NCBI RefSeq assembly: GCF_004791695.1
Contig: NZ_SRSO01000009.1
Span: forward strand, 62,001 to 126,000
DNA: 64,000 nucleotides
Direction: 5' to 3'
Source of the DNA: Flavivirga rizhaonensis
GTDB lineage: Bacteria > Bacteroidota > Bacteroidia > Flavobacteriales > Flavobacteriaceae
A program made the position numbers and the translations under genes. The notes under the pieces are model-generated. The model made no database searches and was not told the origin of the DNA. It saw only the letters and a list, made by a program, of their open reading frames with translations. This document shows, piece after piece, positions 11,052-62,740 of this stretch (within the stretch, counting starts at the first letter, position 1; each line of letters begins with the position of its first letter).

Positions 11052-11104
11052 AAAGTCTAAATGAACTAAATACTATATTTTAGTATTTAGTTCATTTAGA
11101 CTTT
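11052..11104. repeat. 24-bp perfect inverted repeat with 5-base loop
   Basis: Arms 11052-11075 and 11081-11104 are exact reverse complements (AT-rich, containing GTCTAAATGAACTAAATAC) around the loop TATTT. On the plus strand the 3' arm is followed by T-rich sequence, so it could end transcription from the gene at 5984. It also lies only 20 bases before the start codon at 11125, so it could equally act on that gene as an operator or an mRNA leader hairpin. Confidence 0.8.
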
Positions 11105-22133: not shown

Positions 22134-22162
22134 TGACATAACACCTTGTTCTTAATAGTTAT

Positions 22163-22340
22163 GAGACTGTCTAAAAAGTGGTTAATCTTGTCATTCAGAG
22201 CAACGCGAAGAATCTTATTTCACTCATAATCAGAGTCATATATTTTAAAGAGATTCTTCACAGCTTCGCTGATACCTTCGAAACAAAATATATTTTGTTT
22301 CGAAGGTAATATTCAGAATGACACTTTTTAGACAGCCTCA
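22163..22340. repeat. Composite palindromic repeat/terminator after lysA
   Basis: The outer arms (CTGTCTAAAAAGTG at 22167-22180 and CACTTTTTAGACAG at 22322-22335, extended by GAG/CTC) enclose nested pairs: TGTCATTC/GAATGACA, GAAGAATCT/AGATTCTTC and a 36-bp perfect palindrome at 22273-22308. The GACAGCCTC arm is shared with repeats at 43700 and 45690. The 3' arm is followed by T7, so it also ends transcription of lysA. Confidence 0.8.
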
Positions 22341-22389
22341 TTTTTTTATATGCAATAAATTTTAACATTGATATGTCTTCGATTTATTT

Positions 22390-43573: not shown

Positions 43574-43714
43574 AAAAAGAGGCTGTCTGAAAAGCAATTA
43601 ATTATTGTCAAACTGAGCGCAGTCGAAGTTATAATGTTTTGAAAAATAAAGCATTTCGACTGCGCTCAATGTGACATTTAAACTAAAAACTTACTTTTTA
43701 GACAGCCTCTTTTT
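43574..43714. repeat. Composite cruciform repeat/terminator after ilvE
   Basis: The outer arms AAAAAGAGGCTGTCT (43574-43588) and its complement (43700-43714) continue through GAAAAG/CTTTTT. Nested inside, TGAGCGCAGTCGAA pairs with TTCGACTGCGCTCA, bordered by TGTCA and TGACA. The same modules occur at 22163, 45667, 58100 and inside icmF. The right arm overlaps the stop of the convergent pyrophosphohydrolase gene, so it probably terminates both genes. Confidence 0.85.
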
Positions 43715-45666: not shown

Positions 45667-45703
45667 AAAAGAGGCTGTCTTGATTTTTCAGACAGCCTCT
45701 TTT
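45667..45703 (+). terminator. Terminator with GAGGCTGTCT arms
   Basis: A 14-bp perfect stem (AAAAGAGGCTGTCT / AGACAGCCTCTTTT) with a 9-base loop, then TGTTTT. Its arms match the outer arms of the composite repeats at 22163 and 43574; this is the short form without internal modules. Confidence 0.88.
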
Positions 45704-45984
45704 GTTTTATAAATTGATCATATAATAAATATATTACTAGATTGGTAGACCGAAAGCTTGCTTCGTGAAATACAGAAGTATAAAATAATAAACATTGTAA
45801 AACTGAATTAGTGTGAATTCATGTCAAAAGTTTTTAGAAGGTGAAAGCAAAATGCACTAAAGTATAGTATATATAAACTTAAAGTGAATACCATAGAAAC
45901 ACACCGAAAAATATAGTAAAAGATAATTTTAATTACCCTTAAGAAAATCTTTCTGCATTGATGCTCATTATTCAATTTTAATTT

Positions 45985-57469: not shown

Positions 57470-57895
57470 TTAAATCTTAATAAATTTTTGACCGCAAGGT
57501 TCTATACACAGGTACCAAAGTATTAAGTTGGCTCCTTCTATTTTATAAAACACTTTAGGTTCAACAAAATTAAAATCACAATCATCAGGTATAATTTCTC
57601 CATCGCTAAAATCATTTCCAGAAACAGCGGAATAAGTACCTGAACTTTCATCACCAACCTGAGAACTCATAAAACATAAAATACCATTTATTGTTACTGT
57701 ACCATTGCTAAAAAACTCAATAGTTCTATTACTGGCTATTGGATTAAATGTACCGCTGCCATCTCCTGGATCTGAAAGCTGTTCGATTAATTTCCATTTA
57801 CCAAGTAATTCCGAGCCTTCTTCTTTTGGTTTGCTATCATCAGAAGTACAATTTATTAATACCAAAGAAAGAAGCATTAAGAAGCTATTTTTCAT
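57470..57895 (-). CDS. Lipocalin-like lipoprotein
   Basis: A 141-aa predicted lipoprotein (lipobox VLINC, Cys ~16) followed by a short acidic linker. LLGKWKLIEQLSDPGDGSG ... RTIEFFSNGTVTING ... YKIEGANLILWYLC fits the small lipocalin-like family of Bacteroidetes: an eight-strand barrel beginning with GKW. Extra Cys residues (CFM, CDF, LCIEPCG) may pair outside the cytoplasm. Ligand unknown. Confidence 0.85.
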   Translation of the reverse strand: MKNSFLMLLSLVLINCTSDDSKPKEEGSELLGKWKLIEQLSDPGDGSGTFNPIASNRTIEFFSNGTVTINGILCFMSSQVGDESSGTYSAVSGNDFSDGEIIPDDCDFNFVEPKVFYKIEGANLILWYLCIEPCGQKFIKI

Positions 57896-58072
57896 GATAT
57901 AGACTTTTAAGGATTTACCTTTAAGATGATTAATTTCGAAAATGGTTGCGTTAGTTAACTAATATTGTTTACATGATCATTAGGAATAAACGACTAGCTT
58001 GCTCTTGCTTTGATAAAAAGCGGGACTAAGTTTATGGTTTCCTTTAATGAGATCCCTCGACTGCGTGCGGGC

Positions 58073-58231
58073 AATGCCATTAAGTTAAGGGATTTTGCTC
58101 CTTTTTTGTCACATTGAGCGCAGTCGAAATGCTAATAAAAACTAGAATTCCAATAAGTCTTCGACTTTAGTTTATACTGAGCACAGCCGAAGTACTCAGA
58201 CTGACATTACAGCCTTAACTTAATGGCATTG
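58073..58231. repeat. Composite inverted repeat before the icmF 3' end
   Basis: A 19-bp perfect outer pair, CAATGCCATTAAGTTAAGG (58073-58091) and its complement (58213-58231). It encloses TTGAGCGCAGTCGAA (58114-58128) and a diverged TGAGCACAGCCGAAG copy, modules shared with 43607-43672 and with icmF. No long T-run; function unknown. Confidence 0.75.
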
Positions 58232-58288
58232 TGCGCACGGGATAAGCGATTCGCACACTTTTTACTGTTGCAAAAAGTGGTTCTCTGC

Positions 58289-61200
58289 TTACATGTTTCT
58301 GCGATACTGCCCTCCAACTTCAAATAATGCACTCGTTATTTCTCCTAAAGAACATACTTTGCAAACTTCCATTAACGCTTCAAAAATATTTTCGTTGTTA
58401 ATAGCTTTTGTCTGTAGTTCTTTTAATAACGCTTTTGTATCGTTTGCTTTATGAAGGTTTTCTAAAGTTTTTATTTGAAACTGTTTTTCTTCTTCTGTCG
58501 CACGAATAACCTCTTTTGGGAGTACTGTTGGCGATCCTTTAGAACTTAAAAATGTATTCACTCCCACTATCGGAAAATCACCATTATGCTTTAAAGTTTC
58601 ATAATACAAACTTTCTTCTTGAATTTTACTTCGTTGATACATGGTTTCCATCGCTCCTAAAACACCACCACGCTCAGTAATTCTATCAAATTCGAGCAAT
58701 ACAGCTTCCTCTACTAAATCGGTTAACTCTTCAATAATAAAAGATCCTTGAATTGGGTTTTCGTTCTTGGCTAATCCTAATTCTTTATTTATTATAAGTT
58801 GAATGGCCATAGCACGGCGTACTGATTCTTCGGTTGGTGTTGTAATAGCCTCATCATAGGCATTTGTATGTAGCGAATTACAATTATCATAGATAGCATA
58901 CAATGCCTGTAAGGTAGTACGGATATCATTAAAGTCTATTTCTTGAGCATGTAAACTACGCCCTGATGTTTGAATATGATATTTTAGCATTTGAGCTCTA
59001 GTATTAGCGCCATATTTATGCTTCATCGCTTTCGCCCAAATTTTTCTAGCTACACGACCAATGACAGCATATTCTGGATCGATACCATTAGAAAAAAAGA
59101 ACGATAGGTTCGGACCAAATTTATTAATATCCATACCCCGACTTAAATAATACTCTACATAAGTAAACCCGTTAGAAAGTGTTAAGGCCAACTGTGTAAT
59201 AGGGTTAGCTCCTGCTTCGGCAATATGATAGCCAGATATAGAAACCGAATAAAAATTACGAACATTATTTTCAATAAAATACTCTTGAACATCACCCATT
59301 AATCGTAATGCAAATTCGGTTGAGAAAATACAGGTGTTTTGGGCTTGATCTTCCTTTAAAATGTCCGCTTGAACTGTTCCTCTAACTTGAGATATCGTTT
59401 TAACTTTAATATCATTATAAATATCTAAAGGCAATACCTGATCTCCTGTAACACCCAATAACATTAACCCTAAACCGTTATTTCCTTCTGGTAATTCTCC
59501 ATTATATTTTGGTCGCTCTTTTCCTTTATATAAAGCAACAATTTTGGCTTCTATTTCTTTTTCTAAACCTTTTTCTTTAATATATATTTCGCATTGTTGA
59601 TCTATGGCGGCATTCATAAAAAAGCTTAGTAACATGGGGGCTGGACCATTAATAGTCATACTCACAGATGTCATAACATCTGCTAAATTGAACCCAGAAT
59701 ACAGTTTTTTAGCATCATCTAAACAACAAACTGAAACGCCTGCATTTCCAATTTTCCCGTAAATATCTGGACGACAATCCGGATCGTTCCCATAAAGTGT
59801 TACACTATCAAACGCGGTTGACAAGCGTTTGGCTGGCAATCCCATACTTACATAGTGAAAGCGACGGTTGGTACGTTCTGGTCCTCCTTCCCCTGCAAAC
59901 ATACGAGCTGGATCTTCTCCTGTTCTTTTAAATGGATACAAGCCAGACGCAAAAGGAAATTCTCCTGGAACATTTTCTTGTAAACACCAACGCAATATAT
60001 CTCCCCATGCTTGATATTTAGGTAATGCTACTTTAGGGATTTGAGTATGTGACAAAGACTCTGTATGTGTTTTTATTTTTATTTCTTTATCTCGAACTTT
60101 AAATGAATAGATTGGATTTTTATATTTATTTACTTTTTCATTCCAACCAGTAATAATTTCCCAATTATAAGGATCTAAATTTAGTTTTACTCTATCGAAT
60201 TCCTTTACTAATAAATCTAAAAATGATTTATCACTGTCATTCTGAGCTTGTCGAAGAATCTCTTCATGATTTAATCCAAGCTTTCCTATAAGAGACCTTT
60301 CGACTGCGCTCAAGGTGACATTCGCAACCGAACAAATCGTTTTATATATTCCATAAAGCTTTTGAGCAACTTCAACTTGATTATTTGCCTTTAGGTCGTA
60401 TGCTCGATTAGTTTCCGCTATTTCAGATAAATAGCGTGTTCTTGAAGGCGGAATGACAAAAATCTTCTCACTCATTTCATCAGAAATAGTAAATGTTGAT
60501 TTTAAATCTGCTTCTGCTTTTTCTACTAACATATCTATGACAGCTTTATAAAGCGTATTCATTCCTGGATCATTAAATTGAGAGGCAATTGTACCAAAAA
60601 CCGGTAATTGATCTTGAGGCACATCCCAAAGATTATTATTACGCATGTACTGCTTTTTAACATCACGTAATGCATCTAAGGCTCCTCGTTTATCAAATTT
60701 ATTGATAGCAACCAAATCTGCAAAATCAAGCATATCGATTTTTTCTAACTGCGTTGCTGCTCCAAATTCAGGAGTCATTACATATAACGACACATCAGAA
60801 TGCTCTATAATTTCAGTATCAGATTGTCCAATACCTGACGTTTCTAAAATAATTAAATCGTATTCAGTGGCTTTTAAAACTTCAACGGCTTCATTTACAT
60901 ATTTAGATAATGCCAAATTAGATTGACGTGTTGCTAAACTACGCATGTAAACACGAGGTGAATTAATTGCATTCATACGAATTCGATCTCCTAACAAAGC
61001 ACCTCCTGTCTTTCGTTTTGAAGGGTCAACTGAAACAATGCCAATGGTCTTTTCCGGAAAGTCAATTAGAAATCGCCTAACCAGCTCATCAACTAAACTA
61101 GACTTCCCCGCTCCACCAGTTCCAGTAATTCCTAAAACAGCCCCACCTAGCCTCCCCTTCGGGGAGGAAGGCTTCTGAGAAAATACTTTTTCAAAAACTT

Positions 61201-61738
61201 CATGATTGTTTTCTGCTAAACTTATTAATCTAGCAATTACATTAACGTTCTTTTTTTTAAGAGCGTCCAAAACCCTCTCCCCTTTGGGAAGAGCTGGAGT
61301 GGGGAAATCTGATTGCTTAACCAAATCATTAATCATCCCTTGTAATCCCATTTCACGTCCATCATCAGGAGAATAAATACGAGTAATTCCATGATCCATC
61401 AAATCCTTAATCTCAGAAGGCAAGATCACGCCACCACCACCGCCAAAAATCTTGATATGATCAGCACCTTTTTCTTTTAACAAATCATACATGTATTTAA
61501 AATACTCATTATGCCCTCCCTGATATGAAGTTAAACAAATAGCATTCACATCTTCTTGAATAGCTGTATTTACAACCTCTTCCACGCTTCTATCATGCCC
61601 TAAGTGAATCACTTCAACACCAGTAGCTTGAATAATTCGACGCATGATATTTATGGAGGCATCATGGCCATCAAACAATGATGCTGCTGTTACTATTCGT
61701 ACTTTATGTTTAGGTTTATATGGTGCTTGTTGTTTCAT
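58289..61738 (-). CDS. icmF: Fused isobutyryl/methylmalonyl-CoA mutase-type protein (IcmF)
   Basis: A 1149-aa B12-dependent acyl-CoA mutase fused to its G-protein chaperone. Residues ~12-140 form the cobalamin-binding domain ([15 protein letters not shown]). Residues ~200-420 are the MeaI-type GTPase, with P-loop [12 protein letters not shown] (~202-213), the switch [20 protein letters not shown] and NKFD. Residues ~540-1149 form the catalytic barrel ([40 protein letters not shown]). It interconverts isobutyryl- and n-butyryl-CoA or related acyl-CoAs. Three linker segments (~143-155, ~186-200, ~474-502) are encoded by palindromic repeats inserted in frame. Confidence 0.92.
60235..60320. repeat. 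Palindromic repeat captured inside icmF
   Basis: TGTCATTCTGAGCTTGTCGA ... AGAATCTCT (from 60235) forms an imperfect stem with AGAGACCTTTCGACTGCGCT ... CAAGGTGACA (to 60320). Its modules match the intergenic repeats at 22189, 43607 and 58114. On the minus strand it is read in frame as VTLSAVER ... [11 protein letters not shown]. Confidence 0.8.
61148..61170. repeat. GC-rich mini-hairpin inside icmF
   Basis: CCTCCCCTTCGGGGAGG is a short perfect hairpin (CCTCCCC/GGGGAGG, loop TTC), unusually GC-rich for this genome. It is translated on the minus strand as part of SSPKGRLGG, just before the GTPase P-loop. Confidence 0.65.
61267..61305. repeat. GC-rich repeat-like segment inside icmF
   Basis: CCCTCTCCCCTTTGGGAAGA and the following GCTGGAGTGGGG resemble common flavobacterial interspersed repeats. 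They are translated on the minus strand as [11 protein letters not shown], between the B12 and GTPase domains. Confidence 0.6.
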
Positions 61739-61854
61739 TCGTAAAGAATCTTAGTTTTAAGTGTCGCAATTTACGAAATATTCAAAAAAATAAGCTATTC
61801 ACGTAAGATTATCTAAAATTATTATGCTGATTATTTCTTATCTATTTTTTAGAT

Positions 61855-61862
61855 TAATTTTG
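61855..61862 (+). promoter_or_regulatory. -7 promoter box for purU
   Basis: TAATTTTG, an exact TAnnTTTG match, 23 bases before ATG 61886. It argues against the TTG-started frame at 61871. Confidence 0.5.
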
Positions 61863-61885
61863 GTGGCTAATTGATTTTGAATCTC

Positions 61886-62740
61886 ATGAATAAGATTACA
61901 CTTTTAATCCATTGTAAAGACCGTTCCAATATCATTGCTTCTGTAACAAATTTTATTGCCAAAGAAGGAGGCAATATCGTTTATATAGATCAACATGTAG
62001 ATAGAGAGCAGGATATCTTTTTCATGCGTTTAGAAAGTGAATTCACGATAGACTCCTTTACGACAAGTGGTTTTAAAGAATTGTTCAAAAATACTTTAGC
62101 CAGCGAGTTTGATATGAAATGGCGTATTTACTCTTCGGAGGTTAAGCCTAAAATGGCTTTATTTATTTCTAAATACGACCATTGTTTATACGATTTATTA
62201 GGACGCTATAATTCTGGAGAACTTAATTTAGAAATTCCTTTCATTATAAGTAACCATTTAGATTTAAAACCTATTGCTGATAATTTTAAAATTCCGTTTC
62301 ATCATATTCCTGTTACAAAAAACACAAAAAATGAAGCCGAGAGCAAACAACTAGAATTATTAGAGAAGCACAACATAGATTTTATCGTTTTAGCGAGGTA
62401 TATGCAAATTGTTTCTAGAAAACTTATAAGCAAGTACCCTAATAAAATAATTAACATTCATCATTCTTTTCTTCCTGCATTCGTAGGTGCAAAACCATAT
62501 CATTCGGCATACAAGCGTGGTGTTAAAATTATTGGAGCTACGAGTCATTATGTAACAGAAGAACTTGATGCTGGTCCAATAATTGAACAAGGTGTAGCAC
62601 ATGTCTCTCATACCCATTCCATACAAGATTTAATAGCAAAAGGACGAGATTTAGAAAAAATTGTTTTGGCTAACGCTGTTAAATTACATACAGATAGAAA
62701 AGTGATGGTTTACAATAATAAAACGGTGATTTTTTATTAA
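61886..62740 (+). CDS. purU: Formyltetrahydrofolate deformylase
   Basis: A 284-aa protein from ATG 61886. It hydrolyses 10-formyl-THF to formate and THF, balancing one-carbon pools for purine synthesis and glycine. Residues 1-80 are an ACT domain (LLIHCKDRSNIIASVTNFI), the site of regulation. Residues ~90-284 are the formyltransferase-like catalytic domain with ARYMQIVS, INIHHSFLPAFVGAKPYH (Asn and His of the catalytic set) and ELDAGPIIEQ (Asp). Divergent from icmF with a 147-base gap. Length is normal for the family. Confidence 0.95.
   Translation: MNKITLLIHCKDRSNIIASVTNFIAKEGGNIVYIDQHVDREQDIFFMRLESEFTIDSFTTSGFKELFKNTLASEFDMKWRIYSSEVKPKMALFISKYDHCLYDLLGRYNSGELNLEIPFIISNHLDLKPIADNFKIPFHHIPVTKNTKNEAESKQLELLEKHNIDFIVLARYMQIVSRKLISKYPNKIINIHHSFLPAFVGAKPYHSAYKRGVKIIGATSHYVTEELDAGPIIEQGVAHVSHTHSIQDLIAKGRDLEKIVLANAVKLHTDRKVMVYNNKTVIFY

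Follow-up and report, generated by a model that had tools for sequence, protein, structure and literature searches.

Palindromes read in frame within the icmF gene of Flavivirga rizhaonensis: dispersed families, a probably reused linker and a candidate nuclease partner

Results

The icmF gene and its palindromes

The DNA analysed here, 64,000 nucleotides (nt) of contig NZ_SRSO01000009.1 of Flavivirga rizhaonensis (the window; L and G numbers denote further loci and genomes), contains icmF, the gene of a fused isobutyryl-coenzyme A mutase/GTPase, in which palindromic sequence is found at three sites. According to domain profiles the B12-binding, the MeaB-type GTPase and the mutase domains stand in a single chain, as the definition of fused IcmF demands, and the reading frame is open through all the palindromes. 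The host genome has 4.9 Mb in 103 contigs; the icmF scan, which may omit records of the window itself or very close to it, gave Flavivirga sp. 57AJ16 as its best named match. In the solved IcmF structure a linker joins the G-protein and the substrate-binding domains, as described in PMC10481361. When the solved protein was compared with that of the window, residues 459 to 510 of the query could not be aligned. An AlphaFold model of IcmF made from 18 sequences was not used (mean predicted local distance difference test score 40, predicted template modelling score 0.29), and an Rfam scan of 57500-62000 returned only a sub-threshold ATPC match (E 0.62, 21.9 bits where 45 are required).

Site 1 lies between the GTPase and the substrate domains. 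A sequence-only reading had described 60235-60320 as an imperfect hairpin built of repeat modules, read through without a frameshift and falling in a linker, and both descriptions were borne out: the site consists of two TGTC-tagged palindromes, GTCACCTTGAGCGCAGTCGAAAGGTC in the sense of the gene and an inverted GTCATTCTGAGCTTGTCGAAGAATCTC, separated by 31 nt. Folded as DNA, the 86 nt reached -12.6 kcal/mol compared with -7.4 in shuffles, and 2 of 200 shuffles equalled it; a neighbouring icmF stretch of 86 nt gave -9.8 compared with -6.7 kcal/mol (10/200), and neither arm folded singly was better than its own shuffles. The same reading had placed these modules also at 22189, 43607 and 58114. 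The first (left) module was indeed recovered in the window at 43606 (3 mismatches), 43655 and 58107 (1 each), and in none of 100 shuffles, while the place at 22189 is of the second type and is matched by the icmF of a relative.

A genome search with the 86-base hairpin, expected to give many copies, found the complete 86-mer nearly unique (one further place, 71% over query bases 6-91), and it was the separate arms that proved to be dispersed. The left-arm core TNGAGCGNAGNCGANA has 55 genomic copies and the right-arm type 10 places at 3 mismatches or fewer, that of icmF included in both cases, and the reversed-pattern controls gave zero. Across 18 genomes the right-arm type was present in 2-51 copies in each, icmF copies included (controls zero), and the 26 letters of the left arm recur as copies elsewhere in related genomes. 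We refer to these tagged palindromes, which resemble repetitive extragenic palindromic (REP) sequences, as family 1. Inverted pairs of them are present at several loci.

For the left type 19 distinct genomic variants were taken from a scan in which 12 of 18 genomes matched. This set omits the icmF place of the window, although its letters occur at other places too, and the selecting pattern starts with GTCA, so that the tag is partly built in; in the window copies T precedes GTCA. Over the 19 variants 96.5% of the stem cells were paired, and 28 cells were changed on both sides compared with 8.5 after shuffling (0/500 as high). These paired changes indicate that the left type behaves as hairpins which are copied, or selected, as hairpins, in the manner of REPs. 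The stem has five contiguous base pairs (bp) and one more past a GA/GA mismatch; its first pair, A-T, is fixed by the pattern and the second is variable.

A linker probably used repeatedly

The icmF set had 149 rows (the window, 29, 80 named, 10 of the genus and 29 more), five of them duplicates, which leaves 144 distinct genes. When these were searched with a covariance model built from the 19 genomic variants, all 19 matches at E≤0.05 fell within codons 464-512, i.e. in 4% of the gene, as did 28 of 29 at E≤5. The 19 rows with the stricter matches are 18 distinct genes of the 144, and the linker matches cluster at codons 477-478 and 497-499. In the flanks there were 34 matches at E≤0.05, a few of them duplicates (L054 is identical to L140), and none was inside an open reading frame (ORF) of at least 120 amino acids (aa); 575,711 of the 805,926 flank bases lie within ORFs of at least 150 aa.

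The palindromes found in the linker vary from species to species. The stems are ACCTC/GAGGT in L104, ACATC/GATGT in L056, ATTTC/GAAAT in L024 and ATTGC/GCAAT in L054 (decayed in L141); the linker of L122 carries a palindrome of another family, ATTCCGACGAAGGAGGAAT, and in L058, L124 and L228 the right linker point has copies that run in the sense of the gene. In L135, L137 and L084 a second palindrome is nested in the loop of the left arm, and a similar composite stands 3' of icmF in the window. Together with the REP pairs that lie within larger, terminator-like hairpins, the nested palindromes suggest that hairpins attract hairpins. Among the in-gene left arms (27 distinct, ungapped) 71% of the stem cells were paired, and 35 were changed on both sides compared with 13 in shuffles (0/500 as high).

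Codon shuffling of the icmF genes, in a hairpin scan that left out 6 of 120 genes, gave a mean of 6.1 and a maximum of 13 hairpins in 20 rounds. The 17 observed are a modestly high total, and 14 of them lie in codons 470-509. In a BLAST comparison of icmF with the flanks (60 rows) 16 and 11 rows fell into the linker bins, and the 33 rows at codons of about 6, 80, 280, 400, 550, 780 and 1143 were read as locus ends or coding similarity. A tree calculated by a quick method with the linkers masked had 22 REP-positive rows of 130 and required at least 16 changes, 10 of them forced by the starred branches. A row was positive if it had a model match at E≤0.05 or a perfect hairpin, with decayed copies and other types scored as absent, and the L091 hairpin was dropped as chance-like ahead of the labelling.

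The sequence-only reading had proposed that the same segments in most IcmF proteins of unrelated genera would mark them as ancestral. This was not the case: by the rules used most icmF genes carry no intact copy, and the palindromes of the carriers differ. Judged from these comparisons, the linker is probably a site of recurrent capture, at which different genera have different palindromes at two shared points, and not the place of one insert.

Palindromes inside other genes

Four of the 55 left-core copies are clearly intragenic: those in icmF, in an enzyme of the BioF/KBL family (L002, which scores under the bioF cut-off), in HemW (L019) and in an A2M-family protein (L259). This count excludes a few copies at ORF starts, and the window copies at 43654 and 58114 were outside the ORF check. 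Relatives have in-frame palindromes in MetG, PurL and RNase R. With LeuS and a TonB receptor, the proteins in which the sequences predict such palindromes are otherwise unrelated, and the captured palindromes would be translated in several reading frames. Of the loci returned, 7 of 29 for the right-arm type and 7 of 20 for the GC-rich family 2 described below are inside ORFs of at least 150 aa; icmF accounts for 5 of these 14 copies and LeuS for 4.

Two of these genes repeat the pattern of the icmF linker. In the BioF-like gene the same codons are occupied by a left-type palindrome in the window genome but by a right-type palindrome in G068, and MetG has at the same place one type in G044 and a different one in G061 and G066. 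Compared with solved homologues, the insert is seen as a gap of about 14 residues in HemW and of 17 in RNase R.

GC-rich palindromes at the ends of a diverged block

The two GC-rich segments which the sequence-only reading had noted at 61148-61170 and 61267-61305 fared differently. The first, site 2, belongs to a family, here family 2, which at 3 mismatches or fewer has 10 copies in the genome, site 2 among them (control zero), and is present in 12 of 19 genomes; 10 of 200 shuffles equalled its fold. The second, site 3, is palindromic with one stem mismatch and is the weakest of the three sites, its fold being no better than that of shuffles (63/200). Genome searches with two patterns for the GC-rich sites gave no match, and as neither recovered the icmF copy these zeros say little.

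Insertion-only gaps had been expected at all three places and were seen at none of them. The GC-rich region, codons 138-204, is a replaced block, with 67 codons where the nearest relatives have 64. In DNA identity to L134 the window icmF drops to 49-63% over codons 140-209, compared with 94% over the remainder; L135, which has both palindromes, is 86% identical elsewhere and 61-75%, nearer than L134, in these codons. This local pattern of identity makes the window icmF allele look like a mosaic, in which the exchanged block has the palindromes close to its ends. On the alignments, sites 2 and 3 are not simple insertions. The peptide PTPALPKG is found in L132 too, with different codons.

Family 2 and DUF559

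In the window genome (L332) and in the relatives L327, L328 and L333, LeuS has family 2 palindromes and an in-frame DUF559 domain, which stands between two inverted palindromes (the left one imperfect in L333). Residues 100-247 of the LeuS query stand opposite 5 residues in the T. thermophilus enzyme, and no splicing domain was found among the Pfam or NCBIfam matches. Further palindromes occur at codons of about 500 and, in three of the four genes, about 740-808. Pfam lists DUF559 as a domain of unknown function; we take it to be a Vsr-like nuclease of the PD-(D/E)xK type.

DUF559 genes were then surveyed in plasmid records (40 records, 43 places), and 25 loci, chosen to limit near-duplicates, were examined. 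They come from Cyanobacteriota, Deinococcota and Pseudomonadota, and several genera are repeated, so that the tests are not fully independent. A palindrome was counted if it lay within 250 bp, had a loop of 3-8 and began with a 5' arm of 6 or more C/T, of which 4 or more were C, a criterion fixed after four loci. In the first 16 loci, these four included, 14 had a palindrome and 7 had palindromes on both sides (random pseudo-genes, 4.8% and 0.6%), with a density of 3.9 per kb near the genes compared with 0.19 far from them. The held-out loci gave 7 of 9 and 5 of 9, and the other ORFs of at least 150 aa in the same stretches 5 of 47 and 0 of 47 (Fisher 1e-4 and 3e-5). In all, a CT-first palindrome was within 250 bp in 21 of the 25 DUF559 loci and on both sides in 12. 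An in-frame DUF559 domain bracketed by palindromes was also found in Pseudanabaena galeata (L366:2885-7750, + strand), in a 1621-aa methyltransferase-domain protein near brxC. DUF559 may be considered the candidate partner enzyme of family 2.

Features of the window and of one further locus of its genome (positions are those of the window unless an L number is given)
Feature	Position	Strand	Basis
icmF, fused isobutyryl-CoA mutase/GTPase, 1149 aa	58289..61738	-	NCBIfam NF045497, 1727 bits (cut-off 1500)
Site 1 left arm, TGTC-tagged REP-like palindrome, codes VTLSAVERS	60294..60320	-	dispersed copies
Site 1 right arm, TGTC-tagged palindrome, inverted, codes EILRQAQND on gene strand	60236..60262	+	dispersed copies
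Site 1 inter-arm spacer, 31 nt, codes LxKxGLN core	60263..60293	-	resembles REP-free icmF linkers
Site 2, GC-rich palindrome GCCCCACCTAG-CCTCCCCTTCGGGGAGG	61140..61167	+	10 copies in the genome, control 0; HemW and LeuS have sister copies
Site 3, similarly built GC-rich palindrome in the opposite orientation, with one mismatch in the stem	61273..61304	-	palindromy
Diverged allele block, codons about 143-199, bounded by sites 2 and 3	61142..61312	-	DNA identity
REP 3' of icmF	58107..58133	+	left-module match
Composite REP-like sequence 3' of icmF	58160..58208	-	inner part 90% match to nested arm in L084 icmF
Inverted REP pair within larger GAGGCTGTCTGAAAAG hairpin (43574-43714)	43606..43676	not assigned	repeat search
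Second-module-type pair, within GACTGTCTAAAAAG-type hairpin	22189..22324	not assigned	matched by a relative's icmF
leuS with in-frame DUF559 domain	L332:108-3026	-	domain directly N-terminal to editing-domain-profile match

Discussion

Proposed mechanism and rival explanations

We consider it likely that two dispersed palindrome families entered icmF in frame, family 1 being captured, lost and re-captured and family 2 perhaps being moved by a DUF559 nuclease. TGTC-tagged hairpins of family 1, copied by some enzyme, would have been gained and lost in turn at two points, codons of about 478 and 497, in the linker that joins the GTPase domain to the substrate domain. This linker would tolerate the extra peptide, which may be neutral, and the requirement for an open frame would do the remainder. 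A resident palindrome would probably serve as landing pad or conversion partner and be exchanged or overwritten by later ones. The family 2 palindromes (CCTCCCC..GGGGAGG) bracket the joint of the B12-binding and GTPase domains at the ends of the exchanged allele block; cassette and solo palindromes would move, perhaps through the cutting of hairpin-prone sites and repair from another copy. That a DUF559 nuclease moves, or moved, family 2 is suggested by the many plasmid loci in which its gene is bracketed and by the complete DUF559 domain that the LeuS of this genome has in frame between two of the palindromes.

Several observations weigh against this interpretation. Movement itself is deduced from comparison of sequences. 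The tree is blind to gain as opposed to loss, and it scores decayed copies as absent. Some training variants of the covariance model are identical in letters to the icmF arms of the window, L081, L056 and L104, and the strongest matches are these identical copies. In the in-gene right arms covariation is weak (78% compared with 75% paired; 8/500 and 11/500 shuffles as high). REP-bearing linkers exceed the REP-free ones of the same family in length by no more than about 6 codons on the left and 3 on the right, and the inter-arm core is similar in both. Insertion without loss does not fit so small a gain, which would mean either that target sequence was lost or that arms were swapped by conversion. 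The insert gaps relative to solved homologues are unclean in MetG and PurL, and there is nearly none (3 residues) in the BioF-like gene. The genome search for site 3 at 3 mismatches or fewer found no place, with a pattern that missed the icmF copy itself, so that the zero says little. Four of the 25 DUF559 loci have no palindrome, and family 1 flanked a Y1/RAYT (REP-associated tyrosine transposase) gene on both sides in none of 20 neighbourhoods searched with one pattern. Of the proposal of the sequence-only reading, that mobile hairpins enter genes as added peptide linkers, the dispersed palindromes of mobile type, in frame and recurring in other genes, thus agree with the first part; pure insertion is not supported, given that sites 2 and 3 bracket a diverged block, that the gain in length is small and that two repeat families are involved.

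A different history, which we regard as unlikely but deserving some weight, is that a single ancient palindrome dimer lay in the linker of a flavobacterial ancestor and that the present variants have decayed or been gene-converted, without new insertions. The codon 464-512 stretch, in the rows listed, has 40-55 aa in 16 same-family rows compared with 22-44 aa in 19 of other families, the LxKxG core is common to the linkers and the right arms of the window, L134 and L136 are identical, all of which this history would explain. It accounts less well for the other families and orientations at the same or adjacent points (L122, L124, L058, L095 and L226 compared with the window), for the patchy distribution with its 16 or more changes on the tree, and for the two other genes in which one site holds different palindromes. 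The identical right arm in three species could also mean that the palindromes are retained for a function, as RNA hairpins in the icmF message or as a useful inter-domain peptide, and so could the stem pairing kept in many genes and the occurrence of PTPALPKG in L132 through other codons. We think this quite improbable: intact copies are absent from most icmF genes and many of the copies have decayed, the palindromes are read in several frames, and the import of intact copies also explains the pairing. Chance, i.e. runs of GC-rich or palindromic codons where the linker is under little constraint, is hardly credible as a general account. It is refuted for sites 1 and 2, which closely match dispersed copies with reversed-pattern controls of zero, while all matches at E≤0.05 are concentrated in the linker; it is not refuted for site 3, which alone folds no better than shuffles and for which a genomic copy was not demonstrated.

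Within the preferred interpretation by capture and exchange, the part of DUF559 is the more tentative one. Family 2 palindromes and DUF559 may form an undescribed mobile system of several phyla, with the solo palindromes as non-autonomous members and with hairpin-directed insertion, in frame, of a hairpin (icmF, HemW, LeuS) or of a cassette (LeuS, the Pseudanabaena methyltransferase). We would give this proposal rather less than an even chance. Nearly balanced in our judgement, falling only somewhat short of even, is the view that DUF559 genes settle in palindrome-rich intergenic DNA, or that the palindromes are terminators, and that the nuclease is not the mover. The control ORFs were neighbours of at least 150 aa and not short intergenic singletons, hairpins close to stop codons can be terminators, and a palindrome was nearby in 5 of the 47 controls too. 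Against it stand the palindromes on both sides, in 12 of 25 DUF559 loci and in no control, and their bracketing of the domain inside the host proteins LeuS and the Pseudanabaena methyltransferase.

Relation to known systems

In Di Nocera et al. (2013, PMC3733652) the CGTC-tagged REPs are palindromes of 20-40 bp with an unpaired CGTC or TGTC tag at one end, a stem of 8-9 bp with A-T at pairs 1 and 2 and a loop of 4-5. They are described from five phyla including Bacteroidetes, mostly intergenic, often as dimers and some within genes, and different REPs occupy the same site in recB of two Xanthomonas species. In-frame REPs, the same-site recB case included, are already known from that account. 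Family 1 agrees with this description in its small tagged palindromes of the TGTC variant, dispersed, mostly intergenic and forming inverted dimers; it differs from it in a stem below 8-9 bp and a second pair that is not A-T, and here one linker is reused across many genera. In-frame palindromes in unrelated proteins recall the Rickettsia palindromic elements as cited in the same text, which belong to another phylum and are likened here by description, not by sequence.

Family 2 resembles the REP/RAYT (TnpA-REP) systems as a short nuclease gene flanked by palindromes which that nuclease may move; unlike there, the neighbour is DUF559 and not a Y1 HUH enzyme, and for family 1 the loci inspected show no clear RAYT partner. 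The nuclease domain lying in frame within the conserved host gene leuS is reminiscent of homing endonucleases and inteins; in LeuS, unlike in those, no splicing domain is among the Pfam or NCBIfam matches and the domain stays between linkers coded by palindromes.

In the literature searched we found neither the recurrent use of a linker across a family nor the same-site pattern of the two further genes, and among the top-ranked titles no intragenic REPs in Flavobacteriaceae; prior work is possible. A limited search did not find the association of DUF559 with palindromes, and the core sequence searched as text led to unrelated papers only. The many species with one linker offer a natural series for tracing how in-frame palindromes arise, are exchanged and decay, and one that addresses how often mobile hairpins supply new peptide to proteins. 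DUF559 is a testable candidate enzyme for an orphan palindrome family, new as far as we know, and if the proposal is true the system would create new linkers and new domain fusions.

Further observations

RAYT as the driver of family 1 was considered and found unsupported, though such a role is still compatible with the neighbourhoods. Among 20 Y1_Tnp neighbourhoods, searched with one pattern, three had family-1-like sequence, none on both sides: L205 (a fragment, at about 1 kb), L207 (about 0.4 kb) and L219 (about 2 kb). At L223 (G045) a Y1-family transposase match region is accompanied by five GTCACAGACGAGCGCTAGCGAGG copies, which are arranged like a REPtron and have no relation to the palindromes of icmF.

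In the cyanobacterial plasmids L349, L351 and L366 the DUF559 genes adjoin BREX or DNA methylase genes, and in L349 the gene has a DUF1156 piece on one side and a weak methylase match on the other, which looks like a single gene split by it. In the Deinococcus plasmids L354, L357 and L358 it is antisense to its neighbours, at differing points among hpa genes. Phage records gave four DUF559 matches.

The larger GAGGCTGTCTGAAAAG-type hairpins enclosing REP pairs (43574-43714 and 22150-22346) recur, and another half was found at 45683-45707. The series of REP-like matches 3' of icmF, many of them weak (E 0.02-2.3), begins about 46-50 bp past the stop codon; its spacing is 87-88 bp in L054 (identical to L140), L127 and L141 and about 320 bp in L143. 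At 11052-11104 the window has an inverted repeat of 24 bp, free of mismatches, around a 5-base loop.

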